Below, piece by piece: positions 17,724 through 27,785 of a stretch of 32,127 bases of DNA. The position numbers and the translations under genes are program-made. Below the pieces are notes generated by a model. The model did not search any database. It had not been told where the DNA came from and worked only from the letters and a program-made list of their open reading frames with translations. This stretch comes from Tabrizicola sp. GTDB taxonomy: Bacteria; Pseudomonadota; Alphaproteobacteria; Rhodobacterales; Rhodobacteraceae. The stretch covers positions 1 through 32,127 of the forward strand of contig JAAURK010000008.1 in assembly GCA_012032275.1 (NCBI GenBank). The letters run 5' to 3'. Positions within the stretch are counted from its first letter, which is position 1; each line of letters begins with the position of its first letter.

Positions 17724-17747
17724 AGCGGTTTGGAGAACCGTTTTCCT
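17724..17747 (-). terminator. Possible terminator after gltB
   Basis: CGGTT (17726-17730) and AACCG (17736-17740) form a short stem with a five-base loop immediately beyond the gltB stop. In the gltB transcript it is followed by CTTTG, a poor U-run; on the other strand TTTTCC follows. A weak intrinsic terminator is possible. Confidence 0.4.
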
Positions 17748-20700
17748 ATTCCGCCGGCATTGCTTTCTGCGCGTCGCTCAGTGGATGCGGCAGGTGGTGC
17801 AGCATCTCTTTCGGGCAGATCTGCAGGAAATTCCGCCGTTCTGTCGGCCAGTCGGACAGAAGCCGCGTCGCCAGCCCCGATCCCGTCTCGGCCGCATGGC
17901 GCCGGATCAGGCCTGTCAGCTGCGCCTCCCAATGCGGGTGGCCCATCGCCGCCGTGACGATGCTGTCGAGGTTCATGAAATCCTGGGCGACACCCTTCGG
18001 ATCGTAGACATAGGCCATCCCGCCCGTCATGCCCGCGCCGAAGTTCGCACCGATCCGGCCAAGGATCACCGCGACGCCTCCGGTCATGTATTCGCAGCCG
18101 TTCGACCCGCAGCCTTCCACGACCACCGAGGCACCGGAGTTGCGCACCGCGAACCGCTCTCCCGCCCGGCCCGCCGCAAAGAGAAAACCGTCGGTTGCCC
18201 CGTAAAGAACGGTGTTGCCGATGATCGTGTTCTCTTCCGGCACCAGCGGCGAGGCCATGACCGGCCGCACCACGATCAACCCGCCCGACAACCCCTTGCC
18301 GACGTAGTCATTGGCATCGCCCTGCACCTCAAGCTTGATCCCGCGCACGGCGAAGGCTCCCAGCGACTGGCCGCAGGATCCGTTCAGCTTGACCGTCAGA
18401 TGATCGGGCTGCAGGCTGTTGCGCATCCCGAACTTCTTCACGATATGGCTTGAGGCGCGCGTACCGATGGTCCGATGCGTGTTCCTCACCGCGTAGGAAA
18501 GCTGCATCTTCTCGCCATCCTCGAAGAAGCGGGCGCCGTCGCGGATGATCTCGGCATCCAGCGTGTCGGGCACCGCATTGCGCGGCTTCGACCGGTCGTA
18601 AGTGATCTTCTGGGCACCGTCGACCGTGATCAGCAGCGGGTTGAGGTCGAGGTCATCCAGATGCGCGGCGCCGCGGCTGACCTGGGTCAGAAGGTCGGCC
18701 CGCCCGATGATCTCATCCATCGACCGCGCGCCGATCTGGGCAAGGATCTCCCGCACTTCCTGCGCGTAGAAGGTGATGAGGTTGACCACCTTTTCCGCCG
18801 ATCCGGTGAATTTCGCCCGCAGCCGTTCGTCCTGCGTGCAGACGCCCACCGGGCAGGTGTTCGACTGGCACTGGCGCACCATGATGCAGCCCATCGCAAT
18901 GAGGGCCGCAGTGCCGATGCCGTATTCCTCGGCCCCGAGCATTGCCGCCATCACGATATCCCGCCCGGTGCGCAGGCCACCGTCGGTGCGCAGGGTGACC
19001 CGTTCGCGCAGGTTGTTCATGCTCAGCACCTGATGCGCCTCGGTCAGGCCCATCTCCCACGGCAGGCCCGCATATTTGATGCTGGTGGCAGGGCTGGCCC
19101 CGGTGCCGCCGTTGTGGCCCGAGATCAGGATCACATCGGCCTTGGCCTTGGCCACGCCCGCCGCGATCGTCCCCACGCCCGACGATGACACCAGCTTGAC
19201 CGTCACCTTGGCGCGCGGGTTGATCTGCTTCAGGTCATAGATCAGCTGCGCGAGATCCTCGATGGAATAGATGTCATGGTGCGGCGGCGGCGAGATCAGC
19301 GTCACCCCCGGTGTCGAATGGCGCAGCCGGGCGATCAGTGCCGTCACCTTCATCCCCGGCAGCTGCCCTCCCTCGCCGGGCTTTGCCCCCTGCGCCACCT
19401 TGATCTCCAGCTCGTCGCAGGCGTTCAGGTATTCCGCCGTCACCCCGAACCGCCCCGAGGCGACCTGCTTGATCTTGGCCGAGGGATTGTCCCCGTTCGG
19501 CTCTGGCGCGAAATGCGCCGGGTCTTCGCCGCCCTCGCCGCTGTCGGATTTCGCCCCGATCCGGTTCATCGCCACGTTCAGCGTCTTGTGCGCTTCCGGA
19601 GACAGCGCGCCAAGCGACATCCCCGGCGTGACAAAGCGCTTGCGGATCGAGGTGATGCTTTCCACCTCCTCGATCGGGACGGGTTTGCCCAGGGTCTTGA
19701 TATCCAGAAGATCGCGGATATGGATCGGCGGGTTCGCCCGCATCGCCGCGCTGTACTGCTTCCACAGATCATAGCTGGCCCGGTCGCAGGCCGATTGCAG
19801 CATGTGCATCGTCTGGGCTTCCCAGGCGTGCTTTTCTCCGGACCGGCGGGCCTTGTAGAAGCCGCCGATGGGCAGCACATCGCTGCCGCCAAGCCAGCCT
19901 CTGGCGTGAACCTCTTCCAGCTTCTGCTCGATCCCGGTGAGGCCGATGCCGCTGATCCGGCTGTGCATGCCGGGGAAATATTCCGCCACCATCGCCCGGC
20001 TGAGGCCCACCGCCTCGAAGTTCAGCCCGCCGCGATAGGAAGAGATGACCGAGATGCCCATCTTCGACATGATCTTCAGCAGCCCCGCGTCGATGGCGTC
20101 GCGGTAGCGGCGCATCGCATCGGTCAGATTGCCCTCCAGAAGCCCCCGGCCAATCCGGTCGGCCAGCGAATCCTGCGCCAGATAGGCGTTGACCGTTGTC
20201 GCCCCGCAGCCGATCAGCACGGCGAAGTAATGCGGATCGATGCATTCCGCCGACCGCACGTTGACCGAACAGAACGTCCGAAGCCCCTTGCCCGTGAGCC
20301 AGCTGTGCACCGCGCTCGTGGCCAGGATCATCGGCATGGGCACCTTGTCCGGTCCCTGATGCTCGTCCGTCAGCACCAGATGCCCGGCACCGGAGCGCAC
20401 CGCATCCTCGGCTTCGGCCCGGATACGTTCCAGCCCCTGACGCAGATCGTCGAGGCCGGGCGAAACGGGGAAGCTGCAGTCGATGAACGCCACCTGATCG
20501 CCGAACTGGCGCACCATCGCGTCGAACTCCGCATTCGCGATGAACGGGCTTTCCAGCACCAGGATCTCGGTCTGGGCAGAGCTTTCGTCCAGCACGTTCT
20601 TCAGGTTCCCGAACCGGGTCTTGAGGCTCATCACCCGGGCCTCGCGCAGCGAGTCGATGGGCGGGTTGGTCACCTGGCTGAAATTCTGCCGGAAGAAGTG

Positions 20701-22290
20701 GCTGAGCGGCCGGTAGACGCTCGACAACACCGCGGCGGGCGTGTCATCGCCCATCGAGGCGACCATCTCCTTGCCATCCTCGGCCATCGGGGCCAGCACC
20801 TGCTCCAGCTCTTCCAGCGTGTAGCCCGCGGCAATCTGGCGGCGGCGCAGATCGGCACCTTCGAACAGCGCCCGCTCCGGCACCTCTTTCAACAGGCTGT
20901 TGAGATCGATGACCTTCTCGATCCAGTCCGAATAGGGCTGGCTTTTGGCAAGCCGGTCCTTCATCGCGACGTCGTGGTAAAGTCGGCCCTCGGCCATGTC
21001 CACGGCGATCATCTGCCCCGGGCCAAGTGCGCCCTTCTCGCGCACCGTGGCCTCGTCCACCGGCACCATCCCCGCCTCGGATCCCGCGATCAGCAGCCCG
21101 TCTCCGGTCACGACATAGCGCATCGGACGCAGCCCGTTGCGGTCCAGCCCGCCGCAGACCCAGCGGCCATCGGTCATCGCCAGCGCGGCAGGCCCGTCCC
21201 AGGGCTCCATCACCGCGTTGCAATAGGCATACATGTCGGCCCAGGCCTTCGGCATGTCGGTCGTCGATTTCGACCAGGCTTCCGGCACGAGCATGGTCTT
21301 GGCCATCGGTGCCGACCGGCCAGACCGCACCAGCACCTCGAACACCGCATCCAGTGCCCCGCTGTCCGACGTGCCGGACGGCACGATCGGCTTGATGTCC
21401 TCGGCCGCGTCGCCGAAGTTGTTCGAGGCCATGCGGATCTCATGGCTTCGCATCCAGTTCATGTTGCCCTTCAGCGTGTTGATCTCGCCGTTATGGGCCA
21501 GCATGCGGAACGGCTGCGCCAGCCACCATTGCGGGAAGGTGTTGGTCGAATAGCGCTGGTGGTAGATCGCGAAGGCGCTCTCGAACCGTTCGTCCATCAG
21601 GTCGGGGTAGAAGGTCGCCACCTGCTCGGCAAGCATCATGCCCTTGTAGATGATGCTGCGGCACGACAGGCTGCACAGATAGACGCCCTGGATCTGCGCG
21701 GCCAGCGCCGCCTTCTCGATCCGGCGGCGGATGATGTAGAGCTCCCGCTCGAAGGCTTCGGCGTCGATCTCCTTGTCGCAGCGGATCAGGATCTGCTCGA
21801 TCTCGGGCCGGGTCGCATTGGCCTTGTCGCCCAGCACTTCGGTGTTCACCGGCACATGCCGCCAGCCATAGATGTAATGGCCCATCCGCAGCACTTCGGT
21901 TTCCACGATGGTCCGGCACCGCTCCTGCGCGCCGAAATCGGTGCGCGGCAGAAAGACCTGCCCCACCGCGATCAGCTTTTTCGCATCCGGTTCGTGCCCC
22001 GTGCGGCGCACCTGATCGTAAAAGAAGGTGACCGGGATCTGCACATGGATCCCCGCGCCATCGCCGGTCTTGCCGTCGGCATCCACCGCCCCCCGGTGCC
22101 ACACGGCCTTCAGCGCGCTGATCCCGTTCTCCACCACCCGCCGCGACGCCTTGCCGTTGATCGCGACGACCAGCCCCACGCCGCAGGAGGAATGTTCGTC
22201 CTCGGCCCGGTAAAGCCCGTTCGCATCCAGCCAGGCGCGCTTGTCTTCCTCAACACGGGCCCAGTTCTGGTCATGGATCGCGGTGGTCAT
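17746..22290 (-). CDS. gltB: Glutamate synthase (NADPH) large subunit
   Basis: Alpha subunit of glutamate synthase, which transfers the amide of glutamine to 2-oxoglutarate to give two glutamates, with GltD supplying electrons from NADPH. The start at 22290 (MTTAIHDQNWARVEEDKRAW) has AAGGA upstream; 1514 aa is normal. The class II glutaminase domain begins with the catalytic Cys36 (SSC-GVG), so a 35-residue propeptide is removed. Further on are the central domain, the FMN-binding synthase barrel (GQLPGMKVTALIARLR, SPPPHHDIYSIEDLAQLIYDLK, ISGHNGGTGASP) and the 3Fe-4S motif C-x5-C-x4-C (CIMVRQCQSNTC, about residue 1134), then the right-handed beta-helix GXGXG domain. First gene of a locus that ends or continues with gltD after three other genes; note that gltD lies upstream on this strand. 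Confidence 0.97.
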   Translation of the reverse strand: MTTAIHDQNWARVEEDKRAWLDANGLYRAEDEHSSCGVGLVVAINGKASRRVVENGISALKAVWHRGAVDADGKTGDGAGIHVQIPVTFFYDQVRRTGHEPDAKKLIAVGQVFLPRTDFGAQERCRTIVETEVLRMGHYIYGWRHVPVNTEVLGDKANATRPEIEQILIRCDKEIDAEAFERELYIIRRRIEKAALAAQIQGVYLCSLSCRSIIYKGMMLAEQVATFYPDLMDERFESAFAIYHQRYSTNTFPQWWLAQPFRMLAHNGEINTLKGNMNWMRSHEIRMASNNFGDAAEDIKPIVPSGTSDSGALDAVFEVLVRSGRSAPMAKTMLVPEAWSKSTTDMPKAWADMYAYCNAVMEPWDGPAALAMTDGRWVCGGLDRNGLRPMRYVVTGDGLLIAGSEAGMVPVDEATVREKGALGPGQMIAVDMAEGRLYHDVAMKDRLAKSQPYSDWIEKVIDLNSLLKEVPERALFEGADLRRRQIAAGYTLEELEQVLAPMAEDGKEMVASMGDDTPAAVLSSVYRPLSHFFRQNFSQVTNPPIDSLREARVMSLKTRFGNLKNVLDESSAQTEILVLESPFIANAEFDAMVRQFGDQVAFIDCSFPVSPGLDDLRQGLERIRAEAEDAVRSGAGHLVLTDEHQGPDKVPMPMILATSAVHSWLTGKGLRTFCSVNVRSAECIDPHYFAVLIGCGATTVNAYLAQDSLADRIGRGLLEGNLTDAMRRYRDAIDAGLLKIMSKMGISVISSYRGGLNFEAVGLSRAMVAEYFPGMHSRISGIGLTGIEQKLEEVHARGWLGGSDVLPIGGFYKARRSGEKHAWEAQTMHMLQSACDRASYDLWKQYSAAMRANPPIHIRDLLDIKTLGKPVPIEEVESITSIRKRFVTPGMSLGALSPEAHKTLNVAMNRIGAKSDSGEGGEDPAHFAPEPNGDNPSAKIKQVASGRFGVTAEYLNACDELEIKVAQGAKPGEGGQLPGMKVTALIARLRHSTPGVTLISPPPHHDIYSIEDLAQLIYDLKQINPRAKVTVKLVSSSGVGTIAAGVAKAKADVILISGHNGGTGASPATSIKYAGLPWEMGLTEAHQVLSMNNLRERVTLRTDGGLRTGRDIVMAAMLGAEEYGIGTAALIAMGCIMVRQCQSNTCPVGVCTQDERLRAKFTGSAEKVVNLITFYAQEVREILAQIGARSMDEIIGRADLLTQVSRGAAHLDDLDLNPLLITVDGAQKITYDRSKPRNAVPDTLDAEIIRDGARFFEDGEKMQLSYAVRNTHRTIGTRASSHIVKKFGMRNSLQPDHLTVKLNGSCGQSLGAFAVRGIKLEVQGDANDYVGKGLSGGLIVVRPVMASPLVPEENTIIGNTVLYGATDGFLFAAGRAGERFAVRNSGASVVVEGCGSNGCEYMTGGVAVILGRIGANFGAGMTGGMAYVYDPKGVAQDFMNLDSIVTAAMGHPHWEAQLTGLIRRHAAETGSGLATRLLSDWPTERRNFLQICPKEMLHHLPHPLSDAQKAMPAE

Positions 22291-22351
22291 GGCGGATTTC
22301 CTTCTCTTCGGCCTCCGGCGGAGCGCCCCGTCAGTCACAAAAGATCGTCAG

Positions 22352-22993
22352 TCAGATTGCTTCGGCCGTGGGCAGTCTGCCCGCGGTCAGGGTTTCAAGC
22401 TGGGTGGCCGTGATCAGCCGCATCGCGTGAACAAGCGCGCCGAGCGATGTCAGATAGATGACGGCAAAGGTCAGGTAGCTGCCGAAGATTGCGGTCATGT
22501 CAGTGGCTGTGGGCAGCGCCGCGGCAAGCAGCGCCCCGGTCACGATCGCCAGCACCTGAAAGATCCACCACGAGGTCACCGACGGCGCGGGCGGGTCGTT
22601 CAGGCCCATCTCCGGCTCCACACTGCTGTTCCAGATCTGGTTCATCGCGCGATAGGGTTGCCACAGGTTGAACGGTGGCACGATCCACCAGAGCGCCACC
22701 GCAAAAGGCCCCATGCGGCGCTTTTCCGGCCGAAGCCGCCGGGCATTTGCTGCCGCGCAGACCATCCACAGGATCAGGAACACGACCTGCGCCGCGAACA
22801 GCGCCGCAACCAGGCTCAGCGCCAGCCGCACCCTCTCGTCGCTTGGCGCGAGATAGTCGTTCAACACCGGCAGATCGTGATCAAGGCCGAAGATCATCGC
22901 CCCGGTCAGCAGGATCGTCACCATCGTGCCAAGGCAGACCAGCAGCAACAGAACCCCGGAGAGCCGCACCATCGTTGCGCCGCGCTCAGCCAT
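22352..22993 (-). CDS. DUF4328 multi-pass membrane protein
   Basis: A 213-aa inner-membrane protein with about five hydrophobic segments. The diagnostic DUF4328 core is WWIVPPFNLWQPYRAMNQIWNSS, in the loop after the third helix. I choose the ATG at 22993 (MAERGATMVRL); the ATG two codons earlier (22999) has a slightly better distance to GAGGGAG, and the choice is open. The start lies inside the end of the upstream secreted-protein gene (8-bp overlap), so translation is coupled. 61 bp separate its stop from the gltB start. Function unknown; it belongs to the three-gene set lying between gltD and gltB. Confidence 0.85.
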   Translation of the reverse strand: MAERGATMVRLSGVLLLLVCLGTMVTILLTGAMIFGLDHDLPVLNDYLAPSDERVRLALSLVAALFAAQVVFLILWMVCAAANARRLRPEKRRMGPFAVALWWIVPPFNLWQPYRAMNQIWNSSVEPEMGLNDPPAPSVTSWWIFQVLAIVTGALLAAALPTATDMTAIFGSYLTFAVIYLTSLGALVHAMRLITATQLETLTAGRLPTAEAI

Positions 22994-23684
22994 GACCATC
23001 CGCTCCCTCAGCCGGCGCGAAGGACATGATCGCATCGCAATCATAAAGCGGCTGCGTCTTCTGGAACCCCGGCTCTCCGGGAAAGATGAAGTCGATCGGG
23101 CTGCCATCCAGCGGCAGGAAGGTGCCGTCTCCGGGATCCCATTCCGACGGGCCGGAAAAGAACAGCCGCCATTCCGGATGGATATATTCGTTCCCCCGGT
23201 TGCGACGCAGGACGTTACCCGAACCGTCCACCTCCGTCGCCTCGAACTCTGTCCGTTTCAGTTCGATCCCGTCGATGACCACCGTCTCGCCCGTCAGCCG
23301 GTCAAAGCCGGTCACGGCAGAGTTGGCACCATCCGTGCGCGAAAGCGCGAAGTCGAAGGTATCAAGGCCGCTTGAAAGCAGTTCGGAAAAGGATGCCGGG
23401 TCTGCCGGGCCCGGGTCCAGCGTCTGGCGCACCCGCCCCCTGTCCTCGAGGCTTTCGACCCATTGCGCCTCGCTGTCGATGCGCGACTGGAAGAACAACC
23501 CTTCCTGATCAAAATCCGCCCGCCACTGATCCCCCGCCGGATCGGCCTCGCAGCGGTAATGGTTGGATACCCGGCAGCCCTTGGCCTGCACGGTCATGAA
23601 CACCTCGCACCCCTCGGGCGCGGTCCAGGTTCCGGCGAACGAGACAGACGGCAGGACGATGATCGCAAGGATTAGGCTTCTCAT
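22986..23684 (-). CDS. Secreted hypothetical protein, paralogue of the adjacent gene
   Basis: A 232-aa predicted periplasmic protein with a short signal peptide (MRSLILAIIVLPSVSFA). I do not recognise a family. It shares with its neighbour at 23681-24418 a cysteine array C-x10-C-x7-C (Cys26, Cys37, Cys45), the sequence TVQ between the first two, HYRC/YFRC at the third, and near the C-terminus PGEPGF followed by a fourth Cys (LYDCDAI). These conserved Cys suggest two disulfides in the periplasm. The start overlaps the stop of the neighbour by four bases (ATGA) and its end overlaps the DUF4328 gene, so three genes are translated as a coupled set. Confidence 0.82.
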   Translation of the reverse strand: MRSLILAIIVLPSVSFAGTWTAPEGCEVFMTVQAKGCRVSNHYRCEADPAGDQWRADFDQEGLFFQSRIDSEAQWVESLEDRGRVRQTLDPGPADPASFSELLSSGLDTFDFALSRTDGANSAVTGFDRLTGETVVIDGIELKRTEFEATEVDGSGNVLRRNRGNEYIHPEWRLFFSGPSEWDPGDGTFLPLDGSPIDFIFPGEPGFQKTQPLYDCDAIMSFAPAEGADGHG

Positions 23685-24418
23685 GCTGAGGCACTCGCTT
23701 CTGGCCGGACCACCGACCCCAGGATATTGCAGTTCAGTGTCGGCTCCGTGGCGTCGAAGCCCGGCTCCCCAGGCGAACGCACTTCGACGGGCGGGCTATC
23801 CACATCCATGAGCCAGCTGCCGTCGCGTTGCCGCACCCCCGTTTCGCCCTCGATCGGAAGCCCGATCTCCGGTGACCAGTAAAGATATACCGCAACCCCC
23901 ATGGGCGTGGCCGAACCTTCGAGGTAGAGTTCGTCTTCGAGACGGATCTTCGCGAAGGAATGACCGTCGATCAGGATGTCGGAAGCGACAAGCGTTGCGG
24001 TGCCTTGCGCAGAAAAGACATACGTGTGTCCTGCAGCATCCGCTTCTCCAGCGTAGGAGTAACGGTATGGCTCGCCGGGCAGAAGTGCCTGCCAATCGAT
24101 CCTGGCCATACTGTCACTTTTTCCCCTCAGGGATATTCCGCCGCCATGAAAGACAACCTCGATAAGCCCGTAGGTATCGGTCATCGTGCTTCGCAAGGTG
24201 ATGCCCAACCCGGCGTCAGTCTCTGCGCGATGGACGCCCGGTCCGTCCGAGGGGCAGCGAAAGTACCGCTGCAGGGTACAAGCGTCGCTTTGGACGGTAA
24301 GCACCTGCGCGCAGTCGGCAGGGCGCGCGCCCTCTTGCTCTGCCAAGGCAGGGCAGGCAAGGCAGAAGGGGATCAGAAACGCCCGGATCAACAGGTTCCC
24401 GCTGAATTGGTCAATCAT
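23681..24418 (-). CDS. Secreted hypothetical protein, first of a tandem paralogous pair
   Basis: A 245-aa predicted periplasmic protein. The signal peptide has a hydrophobic core RAFLIPFCLACPALA after a somewhat long N-region. The mature part begins with the C-x10-C-x7-C array (Cys36, Cys47, Cys55), as in the next gene, and ends with SPGEPGFDATEPTLNCNI, again as in the next gene. Between them are strand-like repeats (YGLIEVVFHGGGISLRG, HTYVFSAQGTATLVASDILIDGHSFAKIRL) suggesting a beta-rich fold. GGAGGT lies about 12 bases before the ATG, rather far. It starts 69 bp after the gltD stop. The two genes probably arose by tandem duplication followed by strong divergence. Confidence 0.8.
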   Translation of the reverse strand: MIDQFSGNLLIRAFLIPFCLACPALAEQEGARPADCAQVLTVQSDACTLQRYFRCPSDGPGVHRAETDAGLGITLRSTMTDTYGLIEVVFHGGGISLRGKSDSMARIDWQALLPGEPYRYSYAGEADAAGHTYVFSAQGTATLVASDILIDGHSFAKIRLEDELYLEGSATPMGVAVYLYWSPEIGLPIEGETGVRQRDGSWLMDVDSPPVEVRSPGEPGFDATEPTLNCNILGSVVRPEASASA

Positions 24419-24487
24419 TGTGACGTTTCCACCTCCGGAAGCTCGGCCCTGCGCGCCGGAGAGATGCCAGAAGCTTGAACCCGTTCT

Positions 24488-25924
24488 TCATTCCGCCGCC
24501 ACTGCCCCGGTCTGTTTCAGATAGTCCATGATCGCCTCGGCCGCCTCGCGGCCGTCGCGGATGGCCCAGACCACCAGCGACGCGCCTCGCACGATGTCGC
24601 CTGCCGCATAGACGCCGGGAAGGCTCGTTGCATGGGTCCGGAAGTCGGCCTTGATCGTGCCCCAGCGGGTGACTTTCAGGTCTGGCACGCCCCAGAGCGT
24701 GGGCAGATCTTCCGGTTCGAACCCGAGCGCCTGGATCACCAGATCGGCGGGTTCCACATAATCGGCGCCTTCGATGATTTCGGGGCTTTGACGCCCGGTC
24801 GCATCTGGCGGGCCAAGGCGCATCCTTTGCACCATCACGCCCTCTACCTCGGTGCCGCCGCTGAACCCTTTCGGAGCGGAAAGCCACACGAAGTCAACGC
24901 CTTCCTCTTCGGCATTCTGCACCTCGCGCTGGCTGCCGGGCATGTTGGCACGGTCGCGCCGGTACAGGCACTTGACGCTCAGCGCGCCCTGCCGCACGGC
25001 GGTGCGCACGCAATCCATCGCCGTATCGCCGCCGCCGATGACGACCACGCGCTTGCCCGAAGCGTTCAACTCGCCGCTGTCAAAGGCCTCGACGTCGTCG
25101 CCAAAGCTCTTGCGGTTGGAGGCCGTCAGATAGTCCAGTGCCTTGACGATGCCTGATGCACCGACGCCCGGCGCCTCGATATCCCGCGCCTTGTAGACGC
25201 CAGTCGCGATCAGCACCGCATCATGCTGGCCCCGGATCGCGTCAAATGTCAGGTCGGCTCCGACCGCGCAGTTCAGCACGAATTGCGCCCCCGCCGCGGC
25301 AAGCTGTTCGATCCGCTGCATCACCACGGGTTTTTCCAGCTTGAAGCCCGGGATGCCGTAGGTCAGCAATCCGCCCGCGCGGTCGTGGCGGTCATAGATC
25401 GTGACCTGAACCCCCCCGCGCCGCAACACATCCGCCGCCGCAAGCCCGCCCGGCCCTGCACCGATGATGCCAACACTTTCGGGCCGTTCCACGCGCGGCC
25501 TGATCGGCGCGACCCAGCCCATTTCCCAGGCGGTATCGGTCAGGTATTTCTCGACCGCGCCGATGGTTACCGTGCCATGGCCGGAATTTTCGATCACGCA
25601 GTTGCCTTCGCAAAGCCGGTCTTGCGGGCAGATCCGGCCGCAGATTTCTGGGAAGGTATTGGTGGCCTGGCTCAGCTCATAAGCCTCTTGCAGCCGACCC
25701 TCGGCTGTGAGCTTGAGCCAGTCGGGAATATTGTTGTGCAGCGGACAATGCGACTGGCAATAGGGCACGCCGCATTGGCTGCACCGCCCGGCCTGCTCTG
25801 CCGCTTTTTCCGCCGCATACTGGCGGTAGATCTCATGAAAATCCTGCGAGCGCAGATCGGCCGTCCGCTTCTCTGGCGTTTCCTTGCCGACAGTCACGAA
25901 TTTCAGCATCTTCTGCGTGGCCAA
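24488..25924 (-). CDS. gltD: Glutamate synthase (NADPH) small subunit
   Basis: Beta subunit of glutamate synthase; oxidises NADPH and passes electrons through FAD and 4Fe-4S clusters to GltB. The N-terminal iron-sulfur region has CSQCGVPYCQSHCP and CGRICPQDRLCEGNC; FAD binding is at GIIGAGPGGLAAADVLRRGG and NADPH binding at VVIGGGDTAMDCVRTA, with the C-terminal GVYAAGDIVRGASLVVWAI. A TTG at 25924 has an excellent GGGGAGG six bases upstream, whereas the first in-frame ATG near family start (25909, MLKFVTVG) is 21 bases from it, so I take the TTG and 478 aa. A CCCGGG-N8-CCCGGG hairpin (25945-25964) precedes the ribosome-binding site. Length fits the family. Confidence 0.96.
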   Translation of the reverse strand: MATQKMLKFVTVGKETPEKRTADLRSQDFHEIYRQYAAEKAAEQAGRCSQCGVPYCQSHCPLHNNIPDWLKLTAEGRLQEAYELSQATNTFPEICGRICPQDRLCEGNCVIENSGHGTVTIGAVEKYLTDTAWEMGWVAPIRPRVERPESVGIIGAGPGGLAAADVLRRGGVQVTIYDRHDRAGGLLTYGIPGFKLEKPVVMQRIEQLAAAGAQFVLNCAVGADLTFDAIRGQHDAVLIATGVYKARDIEAPGVGASGIVKALDYLTASNRKSFGDDVEAFDSGELNASGKRVVVIGGGDTAMDCVRTAVRQGALSVKCLYRRDRANMPGSQREVQNAEEEGVDFVWLSAPKGFSGGTEVEGVMVQRMRLGPPDATGRQSPEIIEGADYVEPADLVIQALGFEPEDLPTLWGVPDLKVTRWGTIKADFRTHATSLPGVYAAGDIVRGASLVVWAIRDGREAAEAIMDYLKQTGAVAAE

Positions 25925-26096
25925 AGCGCGCCTCCCCTCGACTGCCCGGGCAATCCCCCCCGGGAGCGCATCTCTACTTCCGATTGGAAACGAATAAAAG
26001 TCAATCATGCTTACCTAAATTCAACTATTTCTCTGGAAGGGACAGGATTTCTGCCCCATCTTTGGGAAAATAGGTCAGCATAAGTTCCGTATATGC

Positions 26097-26900
26097 TCAG
26101 AAGCCCGCCGCAAGCAGCACCAAAGCCAGCGAGCCCACAATGATTCGCCACCAGCCGAACAGGGCAAATCCGTGTCGCGTCACATAGCCAAGCACCCATT
26201 TCACGACGAGAACCGCGCTCAGGAAGGCCACGGCAAAGCCGATCGCGATTTCGGTCACCGCGCCAAAATCAAGCACGTCGCGGTTGGCATAAAGATCATA
26301 GGCAAAGGCGCCGGCCATTGTCGGCATCGACAGGAAGAACGAAAACTCCGCCGCCGCCCGCTTGCTGAGGCCGAGCATCAGCGCGCCCACGATGGTCGCG
26401 CCGGACCGGCTGACACCGGGGATCATCGCAAGGCACTGGAAGACCCCGATCGCCAGCGCCTTGCGCAGCGGCAATGCCATCGCATCCTCATGCCGCGGCG
26501 GCGGGGCCATCCGGTCGACGAACAGCAGGACGATCCCGCCAAGGATCAGCATCACGGCGATCAGCACCGGTGTTTCGAACAGGACCGTCTTGATGAAATC
26601 ATGCGCCAGAACGCCGATCACCGCCGCCGGAAGAAACGCCAGCAGCACCGAGATCAGCGCATGGGTCGATGCCGGGTCGCGGCCGACGGTCGAGAAAACT
26701 TGCCAAAGCCGGGCCGCATAGACGGTCAGGATCGCCAGGACCGCGCCAAGTTGAATGACGACCTCGAAGGTCTTCCCCTTGCTTTCAAAGCCCAGAAAAT
26801 GGCCCGCCAGCAGCAGATGCCCGGTCGACGACACGGGTATGAACTCCGTCAACCCTTCAAGAAGGCCCAGAAGGGCGGCGATGATCGTGGTGTTTTCCAT
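26097..26900 (-). CDS. uppP: Undecaprenyl-diphosphate phosphatase
   Basis: Integral membrane phosphatase (BacA/UppP) that recycles undecaprenyl diphosphate to the monophosphate carrier for peptidoglycan and other envelope polymers; loss raises bacitracin sensitivity. The 267-aa protein has the two family motifs: [15 protein letters not shown] (Glu15, Glu19, Ser25, His28 matching E. coli Glu17, Glu21, Ser27, His30) and [10 protein letters not shown] with the catalytic Arg. Eight or so hydrophobic helices are visible. It starts 3 bp after the stop of the di-haem cytochrome gene, so it is co-transcribed with it. The 172-bp region between its end and gltD start is AT-rich and should hold the gltD promoter. 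Confidence 0.96.
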
Positions 26901-26903
26901 ATC

Positions 26904-27785
26904 CTACCTGTCGCGGAAGCGTTCGGCCCGCACTGTGCCATCGGCCTCGACCACGCCGCGCATCTCGGCCGCGCCGCCGATCCGCGGCCGGTCATCCACC
27001 CGCGTGCCGCCATCGATGACAAACCCGGCGCCGTCGATCTCTGCCTCTGCGGTCAGCGTGCCGCGCAGGCGGATGCGCGCTCCGACCGGGATCTGGGCTG
27101 CCACGCCACCGGCATCGGGCGCGCCTTGCGCGATCCAGTCGCGGATCAGGCGGATGTCTTCCTCGGGCAGCCAGGGCGGGCCGTCGAACGGCATCCGCGG
27201 CTCCGCCACTCCGACGACACGACGCCAGATCTCTGACATCTCCGGGTTTCCCGGCAGGACGACCAGTCGGTCACCGCCCCTGAGCACATTCTCCAGACTG
27301 TCCAGCCGGAGCCCTTCCGGCGGTGCTTCCAGCTTGGAATTGTCAGAGTGGCATTTGATGCAGGCCTTGAAGAAGATGGGCTGAACATCGGGCCAGAGCA
27401 CCGGTTCACCCGGGGCCGGACGGCGGCGTTCAGGCGCAGGGGCGGCCACTGCCTCGCCCGCGGGCATTCCGGCCGCGACCCATCCTTCCACCAGCGCGAT
27501 CTCTGCCGGATCAAGAAAGGGCGGCCCGTCCAGTGGCATCTGCGGCTCCGCCTCGCCCCGTAGCCGTCGAAGAAGCGGGCTCGCCCCATCGCCCGCCACC
27601 ACCACGGGGCCGTTCTCGCTGCCCTTCAGCACACTTTCCAGCGTGTCGAGCCGCAACCCCAGAGGTGCATCCTCTCCCGAATGGCACATCACGCAGCGGT
27701 CAGCGAAAAGCGCGCCGACTTCTGCAAAGTCCTGAGCCATCCCTGGCCCGGCCAGAAGGCCCAGCGCCAGGACAGTGCGGCGCAT
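26904..27785 (-). CDS. Di-haem cytochrome c-type protein with duplicated domain
   Basis: A 293-aa exported protein (signal peptide MRRTVLALGLLAGPGMA) with two haem c motifs, CVMCH (31-35) and CIKCH (142-146). Each is followed by the same domain: GLRLDTLESVLKG ... EPQMPLDGPPFLDPAEIALVEGWV and GLRLDSLENVLRG ... EPRMPFDGPPWLPEEDIRLIRDWI, an obvious internal duplication of a planctomycete-type cytochrome domain (PSCyt1-like). A C-terminal 60-residue beta domain (GARIRLRGTLTAEAEIDGAG to the end) resembles DUF5666-like OB folds. Likely a periplasmic electron carrier or redox sensor. Its start overlaps the NDUFA9-like stop by one base, and uppP follows after 3 bp, so it sits in one operon with both. 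Confidence 0.9.
   Translation of the reverse strand: MRRTVLALGLLAGPGMAQDFAEVGALFADRCVMCHSGEDAPLGLRLDTLESVLKGSENGPVVVAGDGASPLLRRLRGEAEPQMPLDGPPFLDPAEIALVEGWVAAGMPAGEAVAAPAPERRRPAPGEPVLWPDVQPIFFKACIKCHSDNSKLEAPPEGLRLDSLENVLRGGDRLVVLPGNPEMSEIWRRVVGVAEPRMPFDGPPWLPEEDIRLIRDWIAQGAPDAGGVAAQIPVGARIRLRGTLTAEAEIDGAGFVIDGGTRVDDRPRIGGAAEMRGVVEADGTVRAERFRDR

Follow-up and report, generated by a model that had tools for sequence, protein, structure and literature searches.

A core nitrogen-assimilation operon of a large bacterial family appears to carry a conserved, predicted secreted protein that no Pfam or NCBIfam model matches. The gene, here called B (positions 22986-23684, minus strand, 232 aa), was analysed in a window of 32,127 nt from Tabrizicola sp. 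(Rhodobacteraceae; contig JAAURK010000008.1, assembly GCA_012032275.1), where it lies between gltD, for the small subunit of glutamate synthase (24488-26008, minus strand), and gltB, for the large subunit (17746-22290, minus strand). Wherever B is found it resides in the gltD-gltB interval, and this location is exclusive in 118 genera. From the gene order we propose that the glutamate synthase operon has three cistrons, gltD-B-gltB. The reading that we favour, to which we give about an even chance, is that B is an envelope (periplasmic) protein co-expressed with glutamate synthase.

To examine how strictly B is tied to this position, we relied on two surveys. A scan of genome contigs initially yielded 80 B loci in Rhodobacteraceae, with B between gltD and gltB in the loci where both flanks were present. 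To lessen bias, a profile of B built from alignment A1 was then run on 345 Rhodobacteraceae genera, with at most the best eight candidates per genome, so that all counts are among the matches listed. The profile matched 121 of the 345 genera at E 0.001, and 118 of the 345, about a third, held a clear B among the matches listed. When the gltB start was located in the same genomes, B lay just upstream of it, on the same strand and within 4 kb, in 115 of the 118 genera, which is the position of a glutamate synthase operon cistron. The remaining three are assembly breaks: in two (G021 and G189) B adjoins gltD on a broken contig, and in the third (G108) gltB gave no match. No unlinked copy of B was seen in the 118 genera among the matches listed; the fragmented assembly G178 has two extra B pieces on a separate contig, which also carries uppP, the control gene discussed below. 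Most B-positive genera have a single B, and some lineages have two to four tandem copies, all inside the gltD-gltB interval. The presence of B is patchy: on a gltD tree of 64 tips it takes at least 13 changes, among which, the tree being weakly resolved, loss and gain are indistinguishable. Across the 289 genomes of the class that were scanned, B was confined to Rhodobacteraceae. By these searches B is a family-restricted (Rhodobacteraceae-specific) family of putatively secreted proteins.

Several results favour a functional meaning of the linkage of B to gltB. In 20 of 90 loci the B stop overlaps the gltB start, by exactly 14 bp in 14 of these. The distances of B and gltB correlate (r 0.85, 82 loci), which fits long co-inheritance, and dN/dS of B was 0.06-0.24 in 14 pairs of relatives, a range that indicates strong purifying selection. 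No promoter-like or terminator-like site was seen in the intergenic gaps and, together with the gene overlaps, this fits a single transcript with gltD and gltB. A search for RNA elements at positions 21000-27000 returned none at Rfam gathering scores. An initial annotation of this DNA had placed secreted proteins inside the glutamate synthase operon and suggested that they may share its transcript. The placement is supported, and shared expression of B with gltB is very likely, given that no unlinked B occurs in the 118 genera, that B often overlaps the gltB start, and that a transposon sequencing (Tn-seq) study, considered below, treated the corresponding genes as potentially co-transcribed.

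In the window itself, the minus-strand gene order is gltD, A, B, C, gltB. A (23681-24418, minus strand, 245 aa) is a diverged upstream paralog of B (24% identity, E 9e-12) with a signal-peptide-like N-terminus and four conserved cysteines, and it too lacks a Pfam or NCBIfam match. C (22352-22993, minus strand, 213 aa, ATG at 22993) is a DUF4328 membrane protein (PF14219, E 1.5e-18; 67.3 bits against a Pfam gathering cut-off of 27.2). The A stop and the B start overlap by 4 bp as ATGA (23681-23684, minus strand), and the B stop and the C start by 8 bp (22986-22993, minus strand), leaving gaps of 69 bp between gltD and A and 61 bp between C and gltB. The assignments of gltD (NCBIfam TIGR01318, E 1.2e-160) and gltB (NCBIfam PRK11750, 1675 bits; Pfam GATase_2, Glu_synthase and GXGXG) are secure by these scores. 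Checked on the sequence, this layout is as the initial annotation had described it, Pfam and NCBIfam bear out its calls of gltD, gltB and DUF4328, and the comparison of A with B bears out the paralogy of the two predicted secreted proteins. Its term "Cys-rich" was too strong, as B has four cysteines and A six, of which four are conserved.

Upstream copies of the A type were seen in few further loci (L008, L013, L015, L031, L051, L115 and L121), with the same 4-bp overlap of the A-type gene and B in L008 and L015, and the aligned copies retain each of the four cysteines. In a tree whose long branches make the result provisional, A tends to group with the upstream copies of other genera, apart from B. 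This suggests an old paralog lineage, of which A would provisionally be a diverged sister copy. No further convincing copy of A or B was found in the window genome; one 50-residue match (E 0.05) is likely due to chance. C has a GC content of 0.645, similar to its neighbours, so composition lends no support to recent transfer, and a foreign origin on that ground is unsupported. Neither B nor C matched in 72,556 plasmid records. A phage or anti-phage defence origin of the three genes was likewise rejected, since A, B and C gave zero matches in PADLOC and PHROGs at E up to 0.1.

The predicted structure of B is consistent with an envelope location. An AlphaFold2 model from 81 aligned sequences is all-beta (predicted local distance difference test score, pLDDT, 90; predicted template modelling score 0.82), and its top structural matches are 4fvs (Z 10.1), 3fzx (Z 9.5), YmcC 2in5 (Z 7.2) and DUF1849 6ntr (Z 7.2), with a weaker likeness to LolA/RseB. 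The model of A (pLDDT 84.6), made from its own alignment with B sequences included, has the same four entries at its top (Z 9.9, 9.5, 9.2 and 8.4, in the same order). The fold of B is confidently predicted to be an open beta-barrel, apparently resembling YmcC and EipB; sequence searches against known structures gave chance-level matches only. A and B have signal-peptide-like N-termini, in agreement with the export of these putative structural relatives. Judged by eye in the alignment, the first cysteine of B lies about 8 residues past the likely AXA cleavage site; with no cysteine at that site, B is unlike a lipoprotein. The four cysteines C26, C37, C45 and C216 are invariant in the alignment. 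Judged by strand positions in the model, C26 and C45 may be joined by a disulfide spanning the first hairpin, which would leave C37 to pair with C216.

Among characterized proteins, the YmcC-like lipoproteins (2in5, 3fzx and 4fvs) provide the best structural matches to the predicted models of both A and B, but they share only 4-9% sequence identity with them, and B lacks the lipobox cysteine at its cleavage site. At E up to 1, no Pfam family was common to the sequences of the alignment. EipB (DUF1849) is a periplasmic beta-spiral protein of Alphaproteobacteria that serves the integrity of the envelope; its gene belongs to a conserved synteny block (PMC10787603). Its structure 6ntr aligns with the predicted models over 157 residues for B (root-mean-square deviation 4.2) and 163 residues for A (4.3), whereas the EipB locus lies near bamA and is found mainly in Rhizobiales, and, with E values up to 1 allowed, the DUF1849 profile matched neither B nor any of 30 aligned sequences. 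Like the glutamate synthase operon gltBD, the present locus conserves both subunits on one strand; in contrast to it, gltD here precedes gltB and extra genes, at least one of them for a putatively secreted protein, lie between.

The closest precedent is the Tn-seq study of Rhodobacter sphaeroides (PMC5513736), and the literature on this gene pair in Rhodobacteraceae yielded nothing on B beyond its remark. There, RSP_1147 and RSP_1148 are described as adjoining gltB and gltD and as required on minimal medium; gltB is RSP_1146 and gltD RSP_1149 (PMC3849096). Going by how the genes are ordered in Cereibacter changlensis (L033), the two are probably orthologs of a GFA-family gene and of B. They resemble the window genes in being hypothetical, in lying between gltB and gltD and in their proposed co-transcription, while the passages of PMC5513736 that deal with them contain neither a fold nor a survey of the family nor a control for polarity.

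In those passages a role in amino-acid biosynthesis was suggested for RSP_1147 and RSP_1148, and by extension B might act directly in glutamate or amino-acid metabolism. We consider this quite improbable: the requirement on minimal medium speaks for it, but B is putatively secreted, matches no enzyme family and is missing from many genera, and an insertion upstream of gltB could have a polar effect on that gene. PMC5513736 nowhere uses the word "polar", so that lost gltB expression remains a simple explanation of the phenotype. B insertions may mimic gltB loss, which matters for the interpretation of transposon data from this operon. More improbable still is the proposal of the initial annotation that the three genes of the window form one envelope complex, with C anchoring A and B. 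The gene overlaps in the window, together with the paralogy and the same predicted fold of A and B, are in its favour, and the envelope part of the idea fits that fold. A complex of all three is not supported, however, since DUF4328 above the cut-off was found in 1 of 149 genera, that of the window genome, since A-type copies are rare and diverged, and since most B-positive genera have a single B. C and A rarely accompany B. Because C above the cut-off is unique to the window genome among the 149 genera, the trio is rejected as a conserved unit; by these comparisons it is a local variant, in which C is a local addition and A is rare.

A serious rival, quite possible in our view although we would hold it tentatively, is that B is a passenger: a single entry into the gltD-gltB gap, in an ancestor, would have been followed by inheritance as part of a stable chromosomal block, and the function of B would be unrelated to nitrogen or glutamate. 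Several observations favour this and weigh against the envelope protein co-expressed with glutamate synthase. As a control we used the gene upstream of gltD (26097-26900, minus strand), which we take to be uppP-like, encoding an undecaprenyl-diphosphatase. Its putative role is the recycling of the envelope lipid carrier. It is linked to gltB in 68 of the 68 B-positive genera with both on one contig (31 on the same strand, 37 on the opposite strand) and present in 38 of the 38 B-negative loci of sufficient length, a total of 106 of 106 testable genera. This linkage is as strict as that of B, so tight linkage alone is no proof of a functional tie; the whole block is stable, and strict linkage of B would be expected from vertical inheritance within it. 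The slot also holds unrelated genes, for GFA-family, alpha/beta-hydrolase-like and LTXXQ-like proteins and DUF4328. About two thirds of genera lack B yet have gltBD. Further points weigh against the favoured reading alone: structural Z values below 8 are often background, fold similarity establishes no function, and the Tn-seq phenotype may reflect polarity on gltB. Against a passenger stand the constant strand and position of B, whereas uppP varies in orientation and sequence type, the common overlaps of the B stop with the gltB start, and the up to four tandem copies of B, all within the slot.

If the favoured reading of B is right, the protein would be exported into the periplasm. Its barrel would be held there by two disulfides and may bind a lipid, lipoprotein or polysaccharide intermediate. 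B would then help to maintain the integrity of the envelope, in an amount governed by the expression of glutamate synthase. The initial annotation had likewise proposed that the dose of its envelope complex could follow nitrogen assimilation, an idea tempered by the equally strict linkage of uppP. Because glutamate synthase is cytoplasmic, B is unlikely to be one of its subunits. A bolder version holds that the amount of B is tied to glutamate synthase through shared transcription and translational coupling, which in Rhodobacteraceae would couple the building of the envelope directly to nitrogen assimilation, with the neighbouring uppP as a second envelope gene; this we regard as unlikely. With B, a connection between nitrogen assimilation and the cell envelope becomes open to test.

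The content of the interval varies across the family. The initial annotation had taken gltD and gltB to be usually adjacent. This is no rule in Rhodobacteraceae: among 39 sampled genera without a clear B, the two are adjacent in 20 and separated by other genes in 19, and in B-positive genera they are by definition non-adjacent. A GFA-family protein (PF04828) lies between B and gltB in many loci; the family recurs in the interval of L005, L012, L149, L161 and others, apparently with up to three tandem copies in L161. Between gltD and B, some loci have an alpha/beta-hydrolase-like gene (about 260 aa; for example L006, L007, L010, L014 and L022), with cluster members in 17 loci. A secreted LTXXQ/heavy-metal-resistance-like protein occurs between gltD and the GFA gene in L134 and L156. 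The uppP-like gene is found upstream of gltD family-wide (in the window and in loci L133-L171) and comes in two sequence types: the first lies mostly on the gltD strand, the second mostly on the opposite one. In L170 (genome G123), one of the 19 cases with other genes between gltD and gltB, a weak sequence match at 559-1225 after gltD marks a very diverged, four-cysteine B-like protein within the slot.
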